DNA from: Streptomonospora litoralis | Lineage (GTDB): Bacteria > Actinomycetota > Actinomycetes > Streptosporangiales > Streptosporangiaceae | DNA length: 64,000 bases | NCBI RefSeq assembly: GCF_004323735.1 | Contig: NZ_CP036455.1 | Location: 2,351,101 to 2,415,100, forward strand | Direction: 5' to 3' | Shown: positions 2,267-42,669 of the stretch, piece by piece | How positions within the stretch are numbered: position 1 is the stretch's first letter | How the letters are laid out: every line of letters starts with the position of its first letter | The notes under the pieces: model-generated | Databases searched by the model: none | Seen by the model: the letters and a program-made list of their open reading frames with translations, nothing else | What the model was told of the DNA's origin: nothing | Made by a program: the position numbers and the translations under genes

Positions 2267-4618
2267 TCAGCTCACCGCGGGTCCGGTGCGCGGGGCCGGG
2301 CGGCTCGGAGCGGGCTGCGGGAAGGCGGTCAGCGAGCCGGGCAGCAGCAGCGCCCGCAGCACGGCTGCGCGGCCGCGCAGCCGCCGCAGTGCCGTGCGCA
2401 CCAGCCTGCTGTCGACGGCCGGGGAGCCCTCCTGGTGCACCTCGGGCGCATACCGGGCGCTCTCCTCGGCCATCGCCAGCCGCCACAGCGCCTCGCGGGC
2501 ATCGTCGCCGAGCCCGTGATCGGCTGCCAGCCGCCGGGCCGTACCGCGCGGCGACTCGGCCGCGTTCCAGGCGACACCCAGGTCGCGGCAGTCGTCGCGC
2601 AGTTCCCGCCAGGCGGCGTGCGCGCGCTGGGCCGCCGAACCCGCGCGCACCCAGCGCGTGCGCCGCACCAGCGTGCGCGCCAGCGCGGGCAGTGCGGCGA
2701 GCAGCAGCGCCGCCGGGACCAGGGCGAGCCACCACCAGCCGGGTCCGCCGCCGTCGCCCGGGCCGCCGCCGAAGACGCCCTCGTCCGCCTCCTCGGAGGC
2801 GTCGGGGCTCGTGGGCGTTTCGGTGGGCACCCGGGGCTCGTCGGGGGCCGCCGAGGGTTCGGTGCCGCCGTTCTCCCGGGAGTTCTGCGATCCGGGCGCA
2901 TCGCCGCGCTGCGGTGCCGAGGGCATCCCGTCCGCGTATTCGGGCACCGTGGCCGTGCCCTGGCCGCCGGAGGAGGAGGAGGGGGTCGGCTCGAACCGCA
3001 GCCAGCCCGCGCCCTCGAAGTACAGCTCCGGCCAGGCGTGGGCGTCGGACTCCGAGACCTCCCACACCCCGTCGCCGGCACTGGTGCCCGAGGTGTAGCC
3101 GATCCCCACGCGGGCGGGGATGCCCGCCTGCCGCGCCAGCAGCGCCATGGCGCCGGCGAACTGCTCGCAGTAGCCCACCCGGCTGTCGAACAGGAAGTGG
3201 TTCAGCGGGTCCTCGCCCGCCGGGATCGAGGGCGGGCTCAGGTCGTAGGTGAAGCGGTCACCCGCGGCGAACCAGTCCTGCAGCGCCACCGCCCGGTCGT
3301 AGGACGTGGAATCGCCGGCGGTGATCCGCTCGGCCAGTTCCCGGGTGCGCTCGCCCACCGAATCGGGCACCTCCAGATAGCGCTCGTCCAGGTCGCCGCT
3401 GGGCTCCAGGTCGGCGGCCAGCACGTCGGGGTCGGGCCGGTTCGGCAGGCTCACCACCTCGTAGGAGGTCCCGCGGGCCGGAGCGCCGGTGGTGAACACC
3501 ATGAGCGTCTCGGGGTCGGCGTACCACTCGCCGGACGCGGACACCCGGCGCGGCGGGTACGGCATGGGCAGGAAGTCGGCCTCGAACCGGTCGGCCAGTT
3601 CGACCTCGGTGGTCGTGCGCTCGCTGCCGATGAAGCTCTGGCCCGGCGGCGAGGGCAGCGTCTCGTCGCCGAGGTCGCCGTCACCGTCGGCGCGCAGCCG
3701 CGACATGGTCCAGTTCTGGCCGTCGAAGACGTCCAGCGAGTACATGCGCAGGTAGCCCGGATCGGTCGCGTCGGTCCGGTAGTTCAGTACCGGCCGGTCG
3801 GAGGTCGACGTCAGATCCCGGCGCAGGCTGACCAGGGGGTGGGTGGTCGTGATGGTCTCGCCGCCGAGCCGGCTGCCGTCGGCCAGCGCGTAGAGGGCGC
3901 TGGAGGACAGGCCCGGGACGGCGAGCGGGACGATCAGCGCCAGAGTCACCGCGACGGCGGCCACCCCCGCCGTGGTCAGCAGTTTCTGGAAGCCGCCGAG
4001 GACGGGGGCCGCGGTGTCGTGGGCCGCGCGCACGGTGATTCCCTGCCGCGAGCCGCGCGCCCAGCCGTCCACGGCGAGCAGCGCCACGTAACCCGCCGCG
4101 GCCGCGGCGAAGGCGAACGTGCTCACGCCGTCGTCGTCCACCAGCAGCGGTACGAGCAGCAGCCCTGCCAGCGGCAGCGCCATCATCGCAGCGGCCCGCG
4201 CGGTCACCGCGAGGAAATCCGAGACGATGGCCAGCAGCCCCATCGCCGCCGCGATCACCAGCGCCAGGGCCGGGGTCGCCGGGATGGGGGTGGTCTCCGC
4301 CCCGATCTGCATGCGTCCCTCGCTGAACACGGCGAGCAGTTCGGCCAGGGCGCCGGGGGTGGGCACGAACCCCAGCGGGGCGGCGTAGGGCACGAACGCG
4401 CCGGTCAGCACGCACAGCGCCGCCACCGCCTGCACGAGGGGGATCAGGACGACGGTGAGCCGGGCGGCCCGCAGCCCCAGCCCGACCAGCGCGCAGACGG
4501 CCACGATGACGGCGGAGGGGCCCCACCAGGAGCCGCCGGCGATCACCGGCGCCAGCGCAGGCAGTGCCAGCAGCAGCGCGGCGGCGGTCGCCAAGGTCAG
4601 TGCGGCCTTTGCGATCAT
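2267..4618 (-). CDS. TgpA-like membrane transglutaminase protein
   Basis: Membrane protein with a transglutaminase-like (papain-fold) domain, expected to act on proteins or peptides outside the membrane; the substrate is unknown. About six to seven hydrophobic helices occupy residues 1-225. A DUF3488-type extracellular region follows, then the transglutaminase core with nucleophile Cys484 in RVGYCEQFAG and His527 in SDAHAWPELYF. The third position is FEPTP, so a Glu appears where many homologues have Asp. A Pro/Ser/Asp-rich linker, one further transmembrane helix and a DUF4129-like C-terminal segment complete the 783 aa. The start chosen is ATG at 4618, which overlaps the stop of a 16-codon mini-ORF (ATGA); GTG at 4639 lacks a Shine-Dalgarno. 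It is last in an operon with moxR and DUF58 genes, a common trio. Confidence 0.88.
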   Translation of the reverse strand: MIAKAALTLATAAALLLALPALAPVIAGGSWWGPSAVIVAVCALVGLGLRAARLTVVLIPLVQAVAALCVLTGAFVPYAAPLGFVPTPGALAELLAVFSEGRMQIGAETTPIPATPALALVIAAAMGLLAIVSDFLAVTARAAAMMALPLAGLLLVPLLVDDDGVSTFAFAAAAAGYVALLAVDGWARGSRQGITVRAAHDTAAPVLGGFQKLLTTAGVAAVAVTLALIVPLAVPGLSSSALYALADGSRLGGETITTTHPLVSLRRDLTSTSDRPVLNYRTDATDPGYLRMYSLDVFDGQNWTMSRLRADGDGDLGDETLPSPPGQSFIGSERTTTEVELADRFEADFLPMPYPPRRVSASGEWYADPETLMVFTTGAPARGTSYEVVSLPNRPDPDVLAADLEPSGDLDERYLEVPDSVGERTRELAERITAGDSTSYDRAVALQDWFAAGDRFTYDLSPPSIPAGEDPLNHFLFDSRVGYCEQFAGAMALLARQAGIPARVGIGYTSGTSAGDGVWEVSESDAHAWPELYFEGAGWLRFEPTPSSSSGGQGTATVPEYADGMPSAPQRGDAPGSQNSRENGGTEPSAAPDEPRVPTETPTSPDASEEADEGVFGGGPGDGGGPGWWWLALVPAALLLAALPALARTLVRRTRWVRAGSAAQRAHAAWRELRDDCRDLGVAWNAAESPRGTARRLAADHGLGDDAREALWRLAMAEESARYAPEVHQEGSPAVDSRLVRTALRRLRGRAAVLRALLLPGSLTAFPQPAPSRPAPRTGPAVS

Positions 4619-4665
4619 CGTGTACCGGCGGTCCCGCACCTGGTGCGGTGCACGGCGGCGGGCAT
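4615..4665 (-). CDS. 16-aa leader mini-ORF overlapping transglutaminase start
   Basis: AAGGAGG (4674-4680 on the complementary strand) lies 8 nt before an ATG at 4665 that opens a 16-codon frame, MPAAVHRTRCGTAGTR. Its TGA overlaps the ATG of the transglutaminase gene (ATGA). The large gene's own start has no separate Shine-Dalgarno, so it is probably translated by termination-reinitiation from this mini-ORF. A frameshift error near the start is the main alternative explanation. Confidence 0.45.
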   Translation of the reverse strand: MPAAVHRTRCGTAGTR

Positions 4666-4754
4666 GCGCCGTTCCTCCTTCGCGAGCCTCGGGTGGACGG
4701 GGGACAAGGGGGTCGAAAGGGTCGAAAGGATGCGGCTACCCGCAGGCGCGGGCC

Positions 4755-6002
4755 CTAGTCGTCGGCGATCATCGCCCCGCCCGAACCGGCATGGCCCAGC
4801 GCGGCGCCGCCCCAGGCGCGCGGCAGATCGGTCGGCGAGCCGACCTCGGCCGCCGTCCACCCGGCCTCGCGCAGTGCCGTGGCCGCCTGCTGCGCTGCGG
4901 CGGGCTCCGGCCAGGCGGCGCGGGTGCACAGCAGGGCGACGCAGGAGCGCCCGCGGTTGCCGGGCAGCCGGGCCAGCGCGGCAAGGTCGGCGGCCGAAAG
5001 CGCCCCCAGCACGGCCACGACCAGGCCGTGCCCGCTGACGTGGGACTGCCCGATCGCCTCCGCGGCGGCGGCGAGGGAGGAGTTGTCCGAGGCGGGTGCG
5101 ACGGCCAGAGCGTCGAGGACATCGGGCGTGGTCTGGGCCGCCACCGCGCCGCTGTCGGTGTGCAGCCGCAACTCGTGGCCGCGGCCGACGAGGTGCGCGG
5201 CGACCGACGCCGCCGCGCTCACCGCGGTCTCCAGCGAAGAGTCCGGCCCCGCACCCGCGTGCGCGCGGCCGCGCAGGTCGGCCAGCACCGCACTGCGGTC
5301 GCTGAGGGGGTGCTCCTCGCGGCGCACCATAAGCTCGCCGTAGCGGGCCGTACTGCGCCAGTGCACCCGGCGCATGTCGTCGCCGTGCTGGTAGCCGCGC
5401 GGCACCGGGTCGTTCTCGGTCCCGCCCGCCGGGGAGCGCGCGGTGCTGTCGCCGTCCTCGGCGGTCGCGCCCGGTACGGCGACGCTGGGCAGCGCCACTA
5501 CCGGCGGCGTGACGAGCAGGGTCGTCGGCGCGCCGAGCGGGCTGCGGCGCCGCAGGCAGTTCAGCGGGTCGCTGAAGGACAGCGTCAGCGGTCCCACGGG
5601 GTAGGCGCCGCGGATCTCGGTGCGGACACGGTAGGTGAGGTCGCGCACGGCGCGCGGCCCCAGGAAGCCGACGTTGAACCGGGGCGCCTGGCCCAGCGCG
5701 TAGGGCAGCGTGTCGTCCACCGCCAGGCCGCCCACGGGCAGGCCCGTCGCGGCGTTGGCCACGCGGATCAGCACCCGCGCTTCGGATCCGGCAGCGGTAC
5801 GGGAAGGCTGCAGTGCCCGGCTGTGTACCACGCGCCGCGGCGCGCCCCACAGCGTCAGTCCCGCCAGCAGCGGCAGCGCGAACACCAGGACGCCGAATCC
5901 GACCAGGTCGCGTTCGCCGATGACCAGCCCGCTGGCGATCAGCGCGGCGCCGCCGCTGAGCAGGCCCCAGCCGCGGACGGTCAAGGCCGGCAGCAGTCTC
6001 AC
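4755..6002 (-). CDS. DUF58 domain-containing protein
   Basis: DUF58 family protein, usually encoded between a MoxR ATPase and a transglutaminase and thought to act with them at the membrane; its activity is not established. Two hydrophobic segments lie near residues 10-55. The DUF58 signature RGYQHGDDMRRVHWRSTARY follows near residue 215, in a von Willebrand A-like C-terminal half. The start is GTG at 6002 with GGGGAG five nt upstream, 16 nt after the moxR stop, so the two are co-transcribed. The 415-aa length is normal for the family. Confidence 0.9.
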   Translation of the reverse strand: MRLLPALTVRGWGLLSGGAALIASGLVIGERDLVGFGVLVFALPLLAGLTLWGAPRRVVHSRALQPSRTAAGSEARVLIRVANAATGLPVGGLAVDDTLPYALGQAPRFNVGFLGPRAVRDLTYRVRTEIRGAYPVGPLTLSFSDPLNCLRRRSPLGAPTTLLVTPPVVALPSVAVPGATAEDGDSTARSPAGGTENDPVPRGYQHGDDMRRVHWRSTARYGELMVRREEHPLSDRSAVLADLRGRAHAGAGPDSSLETAVSAAASVAAHLVGRGHELRLHTDSGAVAAQTTPDVLDALAVAPASDNSSLAAAAEAIGQSHVSGHGLVVAVLGALSAADLAALARLPGNRGRSCVALLCTRAAWPEPAAAQQAATALREAGWTAAEVGSPTDLPRAWGGAALGHAGSGGAMIADD

Positions 6003-27549: not shown

Positions 27550-28503
27550 ATGCCGCTGACACCCGCGGATGTGCGGAACAAGCAGTTCAGTACCACCCGG
27601 CTCAGGCCGGGCTACGACGAGGAAGAGGTCGACGCGTTCCTTGATGAGGTCGAGACCGAGCTCGACCGCCTGATCCAGGAGAACGAGGAGCTTCGCGGCA
27701 AGCTCGCGGAGTGCCTGCGCGGCAAGGTGCCCAACGCCGGCATGCAGGACTTCCAGCAGCAGCAGCCGCAGGAGCAGCAGCAGCTCCCGCCCGAGCCGCC
27801 GCAGCAGCCCGAGCCGGTGCGCCAGGAGCAGCAGCCCCAACCCCAGCCGCAGCAGCAGCAACAACAGCAGCAGCCGCTGGAGCAGCAGATGGGCGCCATG
27901 GCCGCCAACATGGGCCTGCCCGGCTCCGAGGAGAACATGGACACCGCCGCGCGGGTGCTGGCGCTGGCTCAGCAGACCGCCGACCAGGCGATCTCCGACG
28001 CGCGCCGCGAGGCCGACGAGACCCTCGGCCGCGCCCGCCACGAGGCCGACGACATCCTCGGCAAGGCCCGTCGCCAGGCGGAGCAGATCGTCAACGAGGC
28101 GCGCGCCCGCTCGGAGAACCTCGACCGCGACGCCCAGGAGCGCCACCGCCAGGTGATGGGCTCGCTGGTCCAGCAGCGCGAGGAGCTGGAGCACAAGGTC
28201 GCCGAGCTCAAGGACTTCGAGCGTGAGTACCGCAGCCGCCTGAAGGACTACTTCGAGCGTCAGCTGCGCGAGCTCGCCGAGGGCGCCGAGCACAACGCCG
28301 CGGCCGGCCAGCAGCAGCAACAGCAGCAGCAGAACCCGAATACCACCGGCGGCTTTCAGACCATGTCGCCCACGGGCGGCAACCCCGGGATGCAGCACGG
28401 CCAACCGGGCAACGGGGCGCCCCAGGGCAACCCCTTCGCCCAGCCGGAGCCGGCTCAGCACGGTGGATACCACCCCGGTGAGGCTCCGCACGAGCGCCGC
28501 TGA
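27550..28503 (+). CDS. divIVA: Polar growth protein DivIVA/Wag31
   Basis: Coiled-coil protein that recognises curved membrane at the poles and organises polar wall growth. ATG 27550 has AAGGAG six nt upstream. The N-terminal DivIVA domain (residues 1-60: [30 protein letters not shown]) is canonical. Two coiled-coil segments are separated by a Gln/Pro-rich linker (about 70-115) with an eight-Gln run. A second poly-Gln run lies near 257-264 before a Gly/Pro/Gln-rich tail. The poly-Gln is encoded by CAG/CAA tracts. 317 aa. Confidence 0.95.
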
Positions 28504-38998: not shown

Positions 38999-39313
38999 TC
39001 ACAGGCCCAGCAGGCGCAGCCCGGCCGCCGTCGCCGCGGCGACGACGAGAACGACGAGGAAAGGCGCGCGCAGCAGCAGGGCTACGGCCGCGGCGGCGAT
39101 ACCGCCGACACGGGCGGGGTCGAAGACCAACTGCTGACCGCCGTCGGTCGCGGTCTGTACGGTGATCAGCGCCGCAAGCAGCGCCACCGGGACCGCCATC
39201 GCGAAGCGCTGCACGAGAGGATGGTCGAGCAGCCGCCGCGGTGCCGAGAGGCCGGCCAGCTTCAGCAGGTAGCAGCCCGCGCAGGTGCCGATGATCACCG
39301 CCCAGAGCGCCAT
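38999..39313 (-). CDS. azlD: AzlD-type small exporter subunit
   Basis: Small four-helix membrane protein of the AzlD family, which pairs with AzlC to export branched-chain amino acids or related compounds. ATG 39313 follows GGGGAGG by seven nt. The 104-aa product has LWAVIIGTCAGCYLLK and a conserved RFAMAVPVALLAAL. Its start lies inside the end of azlC (19-nt overlap), so the two are translationally coupled. Confidence 0.9.
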   Translation of the reverse strand: MALWAVIIGTCAGCYLLKLAGLSAPRRLLDHPLVQRFAMAVPVALLAALITVQTATDGGQQLVFDPARVGGIAAAAVALLLRAPFLVVLVVAAATAAGLRLLGL

Positions 39314-40074
39314 GTGCGGACCTCCCCGCGATCCGTCCGTCCCGTACCGCCGTCGTCCGAGGGAGCGCCGCTGTCGCCGCGCTCCGGGGTGCTCCCTCCG
39401 GTGGCTGCGCGCCCGCCGGGCACGACCAGCGCCGCCGCCGAGGCGAGCAGCACGGGAACCCCCGGCGGCAGGAAGGGCACCGCCGCCAGCGCGATCGCGG
39501 CGGCGAGCACCGCCACGGCCCGCTCCCGGCGCCCCTCCCGCAGCCGCGGCGCGATCAGCGCAAGGAACACAGCCGCGCCCATGGCGTCCAGCCCGAACGC
39601 CTCGGTGTTCCCGATCCGCTCGGTCGCCAGGGCGCCGACCAGCGTGGTCGCGTTCCACATCACGTAGATGGTGGCGAAGACCGTGAGGAACGAGGTGCGC
39701 GCCCACGCGCCGGTGGGTTGGGCCAGGGCGCCGGCGGCGGTCTCGTCGATGATGCCGTGCGCGGTCAGCAGCCTCCGGGCGCCGCGCCAGGGCAGCAGGT
39801 CGGCCATCCGCAGGCCGTAAAGGGTGTTGCGGGCACCCAGCAGCAGCGCGCCGGCGGCGCCCGCGGCCAGACTGCCGCCGCCGGCGAGCACCCCGACGAG
39901 GGCGAACTGCGACGCGCCGGTGAAGGCGAGCAGGCTCAGTACGCACGCCTGGGGAACCGACAGCCCCGCGGTGACGGCGGCGGCGCCGAAGGCGACACCG
40001 GACAGACCCACCGCGATACCCATGCCCAGTCCGTCGCGGACGGGAGGCGACAGCCGTCCAGAAGTGATGTCCAC
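39295..40074 (-). CDS. azlC: AzlC-type exporter subunit
   Basis: AzlC/YgaZ family permease, the large subunit of an amino-acid exporter (leucine, valine, methionine or azaleucine in characterised members). Five to six transmembrane helices; AFTGASQFALVGVL and GARNTLYGLRMADLL are family hallmarks. 259 aa with a Gly/Asp-rich cytoplasmic tail that overlaps azlD. GTG 40074 lacks a ribosome site; a TAGCGT hexamer (40083-40088, complementary strand) 8 nt upstream suggests a leaderless mRNA. The AraC-type gene beyond the repeat region could regulate it. Confidence 0.9.
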   Translation of the reverse strand: MDITSGRLSPPVRDGLGMGIAVGLSGVAFGAAAVTAGLSVPQACVLSLLAFTGASQFALVGVLAGGGSLAAGAAGALLLGARNTLYGLRMADLLPWRGARRLLTAHGIIDETAAGALAQPTGAWARTSFLTVFATIYVMWNATTLVGALATERIGNTEAFGLDAMGAAVFLALIAPRLREGRRERAVAVLAAAIALAAVPFLPPGVPVLLASAAALVVPGGRAATGGSTPERGDSGAPSDDGGTGRTDRGEVRTWRSGR

Positions 40075-41187
40075 GTCAGTCGACGCTAGCCGCGCGGGGG
40101 CGGCGGCGTCTTGAACGTAATTGCAGGCCCTTTCGCCGTACGGGGCCCCCGCCGAGCGCAGCGCGCCCGGCGCAGGCGGGCGGCCGGACGGTCGAATCCG
40201 ATGGCGGCGGGTGGCGGGCGGCCTTGCCGACCTGCCGAGATGCGGGTGACCTGGAGGAAAAGCGGCGCCGAGGACGGCGGATGGCTCGGCCCGCGGTCAT
40301 CGGGCCGGGTGCCCGCCGGTGGCGGTTGCGGCGGGGCGGCAGCGGTTTGCTGTGCGGCCTTGCCGACCTGCCGAGATGCGGGTGACCTGGAGGAAAAGCG
40401 GCGGCGAGGGCGGCGGATGGCTCGGCCCGCGGTCATCGGGCCGGGTGCCCGCCGGTGGCGGTTGCGGCGGGGCAGCGACGGCAACAATGGGTCCGGGCCC
40501 GCGGTCGTCGGTTCGGTGCTCGCCGGTGGCCCGCCCGGCGGGGGCGGCGAGGGCGCCGCGGCGTCGGGCCCGCGGTGGTCGGCGGTGGTGGTCACCGGCC
40601 CCGGCCGCGGGTGGTCGAGCCGTGGCGGCTGCCGCCCGGTTATCGGCGCGGGCCTGCGGGGCGCTCGGCGGCGGCCATGCGGCCAGGTTGAGGGCCACGA
40701 GATGCACGTACGTGCGGCGGCATCGGCATCGGCGTCGCCCCGAGGTGCCGCCCCCACACCGTGATTCCGCGATACGAAACAACGCAGGGTGTTTTGTACA
40801 TCAATGCCCGATTTCTCAGTGGGTCCGCGGCCGCGCTGCGGCGGCGACGGCCCACGAAGCGCGCCGAATGGCGCGAAAACAGCCCCGGAGTCAACTTTTC
40901 GTGCGCCTCGTGGCCACGGCGTCCGCCGAGGCCGCCCGAAAAACGGGCATAGACCCCAAAAGTCCACCCCATCGGGGGGTGCGGCTCTCGGAGGCGACAC
41001 CCAGGCGCAACGAGCGACGCGGCGTCGCCCCCGACCCCCGATCCCGCGCACCCCCGGGGCGTGCGAGCGCCCGCGACCGCGCCCCGCCGCGCGGCCTCCG
41101 GCCGGTGCCGGCCCGGCAGGGGACACGGCGAGACCCAGCCGGCGCACCGGCGCCGGTAGGTCCCCTATGCCGGTCCATCCGGCGATG

Positions 41188-41240
41188 ATCGCGAACTTAT
41201 GGCCGCGGAATGCGCTTACCTGCGACCATAAGTTCGCGAT
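41188..41240. repeat. 15-bp perfect inverted repeat
   Basis: ATCGCGAACTTATGG (41188-41202) and CCATAAGTTCGCGAT (41226-41240) are perfect complements, 23 nt apart, and are AT-richer than their surroundings. The element sits 19 bp before the 56-bp palindrome. It could be a protein-binding site, a transposon-end-like structure or an RNA hairpin. Confidence 0.8.
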
Positions 41241-41258
41241 AGACGGGCCAAGCCGCGC

Positions 41259-41314
41259 CGAGTCTGTCTCCAGGGCTGGATTCGGCGCCGAATCCAGCCC
41301 TGGAGACAGACTCG
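41259..41314. repeat. perfect 56-bp palindrome
   Basis: Positions 41259-41286 are the exact reverse complement of 41287-41314 with no spacer: 28-bp arms beginning CGAGTCTGTCTCCAGG and centred on GGCGCC. Such a long perfect palindrome is improbable by chance and tends to be unstable, so it is either recent or maintained. It is located between the inverted repeat and the rightward repeat array. Confidence 0.95.
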
Positions 41315-41339
41315 ATGGGACCGGTGCCACCTATTGCGG

Positions 41340-41381
41340 GGTTTCGACCGGACAGCGGCCGGAATCCGGTGAAAACCGCGC
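41340..41381. repeat. hairpin core related to 30413-30478
   Basis: GGTTTCGACCGGACAGCGG and GGTGAAAACCGCGC, with AATCC inserted between them, repeat the core of the 30413 hairpin almost exactly. The following ATTCGATGCGCCGACC parallels GTCGGATGCACTGACC there. The outer left arm is not conserved in this copy. Confidence 0.7.
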
Positions 41382-41817
41382 ATTCGATGCGCCGACCGGC
41401 CCGCGGCGGCCCAACGCCGTCCCCGCCGGCCGCCGCCACCGGCGAGCACCCGACCCGTCGACCGCGGGCCGGACCCGGCGCCGTCCTCGCTGCCCGTCGT
41501 TCCCCGTCAAACGCCCCGTCGCCCGGCAGACCAACAAGGCCGCCCAGCAGACCGCTGCCGCCCCTTCGCTACGTACCGCCACCGGCGCACACCCGACCCG
41601 ACGACCGCAGGCCCAGCCCACCGCCGCCCTCGGCGCCGCTTTTCAGTCAAGTCCACCCGGCACCCGGCAGACCAACAAGGCCGCCCAGCAGACCGCTGCC
41701 GCCCCTTCGCTACGTACCGCCACCGGCGAGCACCCGGTCCGACAACCACAGGCCCGACCCACCGTCACCCTCGCCGCGCCTGCGGCCGTCTTCCACGGGC
41801 ACCGGCCTCCCGCACCA

Positions 41818-42669
41818 TCACGGCTGATCACCGTCGGGCCCGCCCAGTACCCCCCTTTGGAAAGCACCCGGCGGGACCCCGGTGATGCGTTTGAAGTGCC
41901 GTGTGAAGTGCGGCTGGTCGGCGAAGCCGAGTCCGGTGGCGACGTCGGCGAGCGGGATGCCGTCGGCGAGCAGCCGGCGGGCGCGCTGCACGCGCACGTC
42001 GTTGACGTAGGCGTGCGGCGGCAGGCCGTGCGCGGCGCGGAAGGCGCGCAGCAGCGCGAAGGGCGGCGTGTCCACCTCCGCGGCCAGTTCCTCCAGGCTG
42101 GGCGGGTCGGCCAGGCGCGAGCGCAGCAGTTCGCGGGCCTGCGCGACGGCGCGCGCGGGGCCGGGCGGCCCGGCCGTCTCGGTGGGGGAGGGGGCATGGG
42201 TGTGGCGGGCAAGCAGCCGATGCAGCGCCTGGCGGGTCAGCGTGGAGGCGCTGAGGCGGTCGCCCCGCTCGGTGGCGCGGTGGGCGGAGCGCAGCAGGGC
42301 GGCGGAGGCGGGGTCGCGGATCTCGCCCGCCGTGAACGGCGGAACCGACCCCATCCCGAGGTCGCGGGCAGCGGCGGCGACCACCTCCACCTCGGGGTAG
42401 AGGACCCGGTAGCGCCAGCCCTCGGGCACCCCGGCATGGCCGGTGTGGACCTCGTTCGGTTCCACGGCGGCGATCCCCCCGGCCGAAACCCGGTGGAGCC
42501 CTCCGCGGTGGGTGAACTCCTCCACGCCGGTCTCGATGAGGGCGAAGGTATAGGTGTCGTGGGTGTGGCGGTTGAAGCTGTGGCGCACATAGCGGGCTTT
42601 GAGCAGCTCGACTCCGGGCAGGCCGGGATGGCGCCAGAAGCGGGCGCGCTCGCCGGACTCGTCGGTCAT
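41818..42669 (-). CDS. AraC-family transcriptional regulator
   Basis: Transcription factor with an N-terminal cupin-like sensing domain (SFNRHTHDTYTFALIETGVEEF, GGIAAVEPNEVHTG) and two C-terminal helix-turn-helix motifs of the AraC/XylS type (SLEELAAEVDTPPFALLRAFR and PLADVATGLGFADQPHFTRHFK). Regulators of this subgroup commonly control neighbouring amino-acid exporters such as AzlCD or LysE. ATG 42669 lies 6 nt from TAAGCT on the complementary strand, suggesting a leaderless mRNA. 283 aa. The ligand is unknown. Confidence 0.88.
   Translation of the reverse strand: MTDESGERARFWRHPGLPGVELLKARYVRHSFNRHTHDTYTFALIETGVEEFTHRGGLHRVSAGGIAAVEPNEVHTGHAGVPEGWRYRVLYPEVEVVAAAARDLGMGSVPPFTAGEIRDPASAALLRSAHRATERGDRLSASTLTRQALHRLLARHTHAPSPTETAGPPGPARAVAQARELLRSRLADPPSLEELAAEVDTPPFALLRAFRAAHGLPPHAYVNDVRVQRARRLLADGIPLADVATGLGFADQPHFTRHFKRITGVPPGAFQRGVLGGPDGDQP

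Follow-up and report, generated by a model that had tools for sequence, protein, structure and literature searches.

The 64,000-nucleotide stretch of Streptomonospora litoralis DNA analyzed here (the window) contains a gene-free gap filled with repeats between an azlC-like gene and the gene of an AraC-family regulator, which raises the question of what kind of locus this is. The first-pass annotation had described two oppositely oriented tandem arrays around a center with a 15-bp inverted repeat and a perfect 56-bp palindrome, and had offered an undescribed non-autonomous element, a structured RNA locus, or a protein-recruiting site as readings. The sequence and the repeat calls confirmed the arrays, their periods, and their orientations. 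The repeat scan placed 128-nt copies at 40218 and 40354 in the left array (period 136, 96% identity) and copies at 41433, 41576, and 41717 in the right array (periods 143 and 141), and the two arrays were mutually inverted, with 79-nt arms that were 84% complementary. The palindrome was found as described, and so was an inverted repeat in the center, the length of which was 19 bp at 95% complementarity (41188-41206 / 41222-41240) instead of 15 bp. The features are collected in Table 1. Elsewhere in the window, at 27754-27888, the tandem repeat scan reported a CAG-rich imperfect repeat of 45 triplets.

Table 1. Features of the azlC-araC locus in window coordinates, with the strand and the basis of each call.
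Feature	Position	Strand	Basis
Whole element copy	40216..41777	+	limits of homology to 40 fetched loci
Array unit L1 (outermost left)	40217..40323	-	unit profile
Array unit L2	40336..40459	-	unit profile
Half unit L3 (A half; overlapping the beginning of the core model)	40471..40530	-	unit profile
Core, conserved blocks, without coding signal	40495..41360	+	profile match 3-866
Core stem-loop GCGAACTTATGG..CCATAAGTTCGC	41188..41240	+	repeat calls and core folding
Perfect 56-bp palindrome	41259..41314	.	repeat calls
Array unit R1	41435..41561	+	unit profile
Array unit R2	41578..41702	+	unit profile
Half unit R3 (A half; outermost right)	41719..41778	+	unit profile
Left neighbor, azlC-like host gene	39295..40074	-	ORF; name from the first-pass annotation, orthology by tblastn
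Right neighbor, AraC-family regulator, host gene	41818..42669	-	ORF; name from the first-pass annotation; relatives

From stop to start, the azlC-araC gap measured 1,744 bp in the window, versus 116-162 bp between the araC and azlC protein matches in all five congeners compared (L010, L011, L012, L013, and L170, including S. sp. PA3, S. mangrovi, and S. alba), in which the unit and the core were absent from the gap. Among three loci outside the genus, the gap was 81 and 164 bp in two and held 722 bp of other sequence in the third. Since the site was empty in five congeners, the window copy can be regarded as an insertion, which would have occurred in the S. litoralis lineage, or else the element would have been lost in all the others. 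This comparison covered the window site alone of the 76 loci described below.

The genome of this beach-sand bacterium comprises 5,814,190 bases in two contigs of 5,724,192 and 89,998; for strain M2T, the 89,998-bp replicon was described as a potential prophage or episome, and the chromosome contig was given as 5,878,427 bp (PMC8448680). A search of the genome with positions 40150-41950 returned strong matches at at least 40 loci (the best 40 of 837 candidate places), and the core motif occurred 59 times exactly, 65 times with up to one mismatch, and 70 times with up to two, compared with four times for the reversed control. The repeats in the window are therefore not due to chance, and the further copies by which the first-pass annotation wanted its element judged proved to be numerous. 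At least 76 dispersed, gene-free loci with a core were counted, which together span 83.7 kb, or at least 1.46% of the chromosome. These were the loci with a core among 78 fetched S. litoralis loci (L020-L097, of which L095 and L097 consist of units without a core); loci L254-L269 of the same genome lie outside this count, and all copy counts are lower bounds. The span of an element had a median of 1,087 bp and ranged from 271 to 1,951 bp.

The core and unit profiles revealed a common plan of units, core, and units, with a core of up to approximately 0.87 kb and units of approximately 125-140 bp. The units beside the cores pointed outward in 260 of 260 cases, a count that excludes units inside the core span. 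Each side carried zero to five units, single units being common, with none on the left in 10 loci and none on the right in six. The S. litoralis family thus has the inverted termini of tandem repeats around a middle domain by which foldback elements are recognized. The unit consists of an A half (CCACCGGCGNGCACCCG) and a B half (an AAAAG box and CAAGGCCGC-CAGCAGACC), and half units were also found within arrays. Units of the same array had a similarity of 0.797, and homogenization between the arms of the S. litoralis arrays was absent, as units of the left and right array of one element were no more similar (0.759) than units of different elements (0.759). In L040, approximately 1.3 kb at 3588-4900 (G000:C1 2274087-2275399) with an IS110-like transposase ORF, recognized by eye, interrupts an array unit and is a separate insertion.

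Between copies, the core had a median identity of 81.8%, with a range of 70.0 to 99.6% over 1,711 pairs. No predicted genes lay inside the 76 chained spans (at least 90 aa, GC3 rule; simple G+C-based ORF calling), and a coding core was rejected on account of stops in five of the six consensus frames and many single-base indels; the sixth frame was open, as is common at such a G+C content. The core alignment looked mosaic, and near-identical stretches ended within the arrays, a pattern in the sequences that suggests gene conversion.

At the outer edges of many copies, a common terminal repeat was found, TA followed by AGCCGTGTTTAAGAA, which occurs in two end types, T1 and T2, both containing AGCCGTGTTTAAGAA. 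The pattern recognized 49 outer ends of the 156 possible at 78 loci. TA preceded 36 of the 49, and at 12 of the 49 the border triplet (TAA, TAG, or TGA) was the in-frame stop codon of a predicted flanking gene. Among the 14 two-ended copies of a relaxed search, nine had TA on both sides and five did not (L021, L023, L035, L037, and L086); the strict search gave a partly different two-ended set, in which L065, flanked by TA at both ends, and L085, with TA at a single end, were found by that search only and are not among the 14. The target reconstructed for the nine TA-flanked copies was CTAG in six and TTAG, CTAA, and CTAC in one each, against a background in which 101 of 4,741 TA sites stood in a CTAG context (498,743 sampled bases outside elements). 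Ten of these 101 background sites were TAG stop codons, so the placement at stop codons is partly a consequence of the CTAG target. The TA could also be part of the terminal repeat instead of a duplication.

For the window copy itself, a convincing outer terminal repeat was not found at either edge. The best match at the right edge had 8 mismatches in 19 positions and was equaled or bettered in 49 of 500 shuffles; 41810-41828 was accordingly rejected as a degenerate outer end, being no better than shuffled sequence. At the corresponding site of S. sp. PA3, the araC gene (L170, about 4843-4860) ends in TAG followed by GCCGTGCTC, which resembles the terminal repeat, either by chance or as a remnant. 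A shorter S. litoralis element, L254 2011-2804 (G000:C1 952607-953419), has ends of a GCCCTG variant, T2 being its left end and T1 its right end.

The exact repeat AGCCGTGTTNAAGAA was present in seven of 297 genomes of the bacterial family, 15 times in S. litoralis, three times in G004, and once in each of five others. A looser search of six Streptomonospora genomes returned 70 ends in S. litoralis, 95 in G004, 12 in G005, and one to three in the rest, with controls giving one to five per genome. The 12 ends in the congener G005 formed six pairs of TA followed by GGCCCTGTTTAAGAA, which enclose a 302-aa IS5-family transposase (Pfam DUF4096 and DDE_Tnp_1; NCBIfam transpos_IS5_3, NF033580, E 2.5e-74). 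Five of the six insertion sequence (IS) copies were 99-100% alike in protein and one 83%; their ends read TA followed by GGCCCTGTTTAAGAAG, and their targets were CTAG or TTAG in the copies read. The terminal repeat of the S. litoralis family was identical to that of this IS at 13-14 of 14 bp, L254 having the same 14 bp (GCCCTGTTTAAGAA). The two share the terminal repeat GCC[C/G]TGTTTAAGAA, the TA flanks, and the CTAG/TTAG target, whereas the IS encodes a transposase, is unlike in its interior, and has its ends about 1,034 bp apart. Beyond the approximately 15-bp repeat, the similarity between element and IS ends was weak (best z 1.7). Within IS5, the usual target of the IS427 group is TA.

The G005 transposase protein had no match in the S. 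litoralis genome, and the family therefore looks orphaned. Elsewhere, it matched one 106-residue piece in G004, many more distant proteins in G002, and weakly G001 and G003. Two copies of a more distant IS5-type element in G002 (L276 and L280) have a reading frame that appears split in two and end at GGCTAGG. The IS630 elements of S. litoralis were rejected as mobilizer, since they have other ends, TA-GTGTTCTGCGCC. IS630 and Tc1-mariner elements resemble the family in their TA target, which ISY100 duplicates (PMC2170065), and an IS630 composite transposon prefers CTAG according to a title in the reference list of that article. In S. litoralis, an IS630-type element of about 1,147 bp was found in three nearly identical copies (L126, L127, and L128; G000:C1 1968776, 3903579, and 5228281), of which L126 is located at the TA of one family end (AACAGGGCT-TA).

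The undescribed non-autonomous element of the first-pass annotation is thus well supported by the dispersed copies, the empty site, the terminal inverted repeats, the TA flanks, and the autonomous IS in a congener, and it is the best of the three readings. We consider it probable that the locus belongs to a family of non-autonomous, foldback-like transposable elements mobilized through IS5-type ends in the S. litoralis lineage. Like a miniature inverted-repeat transposable element (MITE), a copy holds no transposase gene, shares its terminal inverted repeats with an autonomous IS (a partner found only in a congener), and, in the window, occupies a site that is empty in relatives. MITEs are usually shorter than about 600 bp, which the median span here exceeds; membership among IS5-derived MITEs is therefore supported by the ends and the target, not by length.

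The IS5 features would be silent on the spread of the arrays if the S. litoralis elements were accidental composites, in which array-core elements happened to be bracketed by IS5-type MITE ends. The genome of G004 speaks for this. It contains elements of the same plan with units of approximately 72 bp, which stood on both sides and pointed outward at 19 of 21 loci and on one side only at the other two. These arrays had no IS5-type outer ends, so such ends do not explain arrays generally. Nested in the core at 17 of the 21 loci (within L106-L125) was an IS5-ended MITE; these G004 MITEs are approximately 280-360 bp long, have long internal inverted repeats, and are also free-standing (L134, L137, and L139), with L137 lying exactly at a stop codon. 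Elements in other genera end in the B box without an IS5-type repeat. Against a composite by accident, 40 of the 47 S. litoralis ends with a core nearby followed one arrangement, T1 being 5' and T2 being 3' of the core, and the TA flanks lay outside the whole composite; this fixed order and the outer TA indicate that at least part of the spread used the IS5-type ends. Seven of the 47 ends broke the order. In L082, L085, and L088 (G000:C1 971122-972708, 293113-294154, and 1503163-1504122), both ends were swapped, that is, the core was reversed between T1 and T2, and L029 had T1 on both sides. These four exceptions fit later recombination, but they weaken the argument from end order. The three reversed cores may have arisen by recombination between the inverted arrays, which would make the core an invertible segment, and they fit the foldback-like model. 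On balance, we judge an accidental composite rather unlikely.

Simpler relatives, in which one long inverted repeat on each side encloses a noncoding core, were found in three other genera. In G026, G103, G028, and G012, elements were bounded by inverted B halves ending at GGTCTGCTGNGCGGCCTTGT and had cores of a few hundred bases, with the box on one side only in many of the fetched loci. Among 345 genomes of the order, the B box (up to one mismatch) was found 184 times in S. litoralis, 52 times in G026, 20 in G012, 15 in G028, and 10 in G103; no other genome had it more than once, and G004 lacked it. The G004 core was largely different, with only short and weak matches to that of S. litoralis; it has its own near-perfect palindrome of approximately 54 bp with the same center, CGGCGCCG, and, following GGCGATGATC, a stem-loop that is also similar. 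Across 13 elements from the congeners G026 and G103, arms belonging to one element had a mean identity of 0.87 over positions 21-90 (range 80-97%), compared with a mean of 0.75 and a maximum of 0.91 for arms of different elements. Variable stretches there are common to both arms of an element but not to different elements, as if the arms had been copied onto each other (L282-L284, L294-L298, and L162-L168). At the loci examined, no transposase accompanied the older array ends, and an autonomous array element was rejected, as the longest G026/G012 box pair among those listed, 1,668 bp, had no transposase-like ORF.

In S. litoralis, the palindrome was kept in 19 loci with a core. In 13 of these it was perfect across 56 bp or more, and six arm sequences were represented among the 13. 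Its arms were paired in 94.0% of cells versus 89.5 in shuffles, and double changes were found in 20 cells versus 8.0, a number reached in 0 of 500 shuffles, whereas further pair types did not exceed shuffles (11 vs. 12.2). Four of five such measures exceeded most or all shuffles and one did not, and related copies can exceed shuffles without structure. A palindrome that is rewritten between copies and stays palindromic may indicate selection for a hairpin or copying from arm to arm. These observations leave room for a further reading, which we advance tentatively and consider doubtful, namely that an old noncoding lineage with inverted GGTCTGCTGNGCGGCCTTGT termini in four genera had a separate mobilizer and that S. 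litoralis captured IS5-type ends, which would make it the first foldback to be described in bacteria. The arms that seem mutually copied in the 13 elements of G026 and G103, together with core palindromes that are rewritten yet palindromic, would point to a hairpin or cruciform copying step.

Conserved boxes in the units also fit the protein-recruiting site of the first-pass annotation, and they recur across four genera, as would be expected if the loci were functional host sites for nucleoid organization, segregation, or domain boundaries, with a host protein on the arrays and spread by occasional recombination. The conserved core columns were clustered as well (variance of 12-column means 0.00242, whereas 2,000 shuffles averaged 0.00158 and reached 0.00244 at most), an unevenness that a plain passenger would not need and that weakens the plain passenger reading. 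The first half of the chromosome, which opens with a reading frame that we take from its sequence to be DnaA-like, held 48 loci versus 28 in the second half, and the placement was intergenic: by a simple G+C gene rule, 40 of the 76 loci stood between tandem, 26 between convergent, and only four between divergent genes (four of the 70 classified), with six unclassified. However, the spacing was random (CV 0.96 vs. 0.98 expected), there was no strand bias in either half (24/48 and 12/28), and co-orientation with tandem genes was absent (22/40). The random spacing and strand argue against a polar chromosomal signal, and a chromosome-organizing site of the KOPS or parS kind, with polarity and an origin-centered or regular placement, was rejected. 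Only five of the 345 genomes examined in the order had the B box more than once, as did one of the six from Streptomonospora, and the empty window site in congeners also counts against a host function, which we regard as quite unlikely. The placement is consistent with an element that is tolerated at a distance from promoters.

Long structured noncoding RNA genes or bidirectional 3'-end elements (terminators or insulators), kept for their position after genes, would account for the gene ending toward the element at 66 of the 70 classified loci, for the excess of convergent pairs (26/70 vs. 6/43 in the window, with 32 tandem and 5 divergent), and for the stem-loop and the covarying palindrome in the core. 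This reading is very unlikely, because no covarying helix was found among 204 distinct units, double changes affected only 7 of the 151 core pairs predicted for one strand and 11 of the 165 for the opposite strand, no Rfam match reached the gathering threshold in the window, the palindrome is confined to 19 core loci, and the CTAG target already predicts part of the stop-codon placement. The core stem-loop (columns 768-822) was paired in most of 28 cores with a mostly unchanged sequence, hence without covariation support. Covariation, the mark of a structured RNA, was thus seen in the palindrome only; the structured RNA locus was rejected for the units and is only weakly supported for the core. 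A plasmid or phage origin was rejected, as no DNA match was present in 72,556 plasmid and 50,697 phage records (own-genome records possibly excluded); plasmid records also lacked matches to the elements of two relatives (with the same possible exclusion), and the exact core motif was absent from the genome and viral contigs searched (own genome possibly excluded).

A limited literature search on bacterial foldback and MITE precedents, Streptomonospora, targets, and Nocardiopsis repeats returned no description of the family and no bacterial foldback, the foldback examples found being eukaryotic; "undescribed" is meant within the bounds of that search. Tetris of Drosophila virilis has inverted termini with internal tandem repeats of approximately 220 bp (PMC4079207), and Galileo, of the P superfamily, has inverted termini with tandem repeats, approximately 140 bp in one copy, and with extra transposase binding sites (PMC4168063). 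Both resemble the S. litoralis family in their inverted tandem-repeat termini, their middle domain, and their copies without transposase, but they are eukaryotic, whereas the present family is bacterial and has IS5-type ends, a TA target, and zero to five units per side. Most foldbacks are said to be Mutator-like (PMC4168063); here, no copy carries a transposase of the Mutator or P superfamily or any other, and the matching ends are those of IS5. Among bacterial MITEs, a close counterpart is RUP, a 107-bp noncoding intergenic MITE with TA termini and repeats common to IS630-Spn1, its proposed mobilizer (PMC2229807). RUP is likewise noncoding and intergenic, with terminal repeats common to an IS and TA at the termini, but its IS resides in the same species, whereas the S. 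litoralis family is about tenfold longer by its median, carries tandem arrays, and finds its matching IS in a congener only. By analogy, the family seems to work like both, as a passenger on IS-type ends with foldback-type termini.

Under the preferred reading of a non-autonomous foldback-like element, the array unit would have arisen by multiplication of an older, long terminal inverted repeat with the boxes GGTCTGCTGNGCGGCCTTGT and GAAAAGCGGC, and the S. litoralis composite would additionally bear outer terminal repeats (AGCCGTGTTTAAGAA) that resemble the ends of an IS5-family IS. An IS5-type transposase acting in trans would have bound these ends and spread the element, choosing TA, preferably in CTAG and often in the TAG stop codon of a gene, and presumably duplicating the TA, and it would since have been lost from the S. 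litoralis genome. The copies would now diverge, swap core segments, and gain or lose units, with the core flipping between the inverted arrays; recombination would be the likely cause of the mosaics, the flips, and the variable unit number. The units may in addition bind a protein.

What is new is the architecture in bacteria, the staged relatives, and the orphaned IS5 link. The stages, from single long repeats through doubled units and arrays to arrays with IS ends, would make the origin of such arrays traceable and testable in a culturable bacterium. The TA/CTAG target would let the element occupy stop codons harmlessly, because its first base restores the stop. The reversed cores suggest that the repeats would also readily serve as substrates for recombination.
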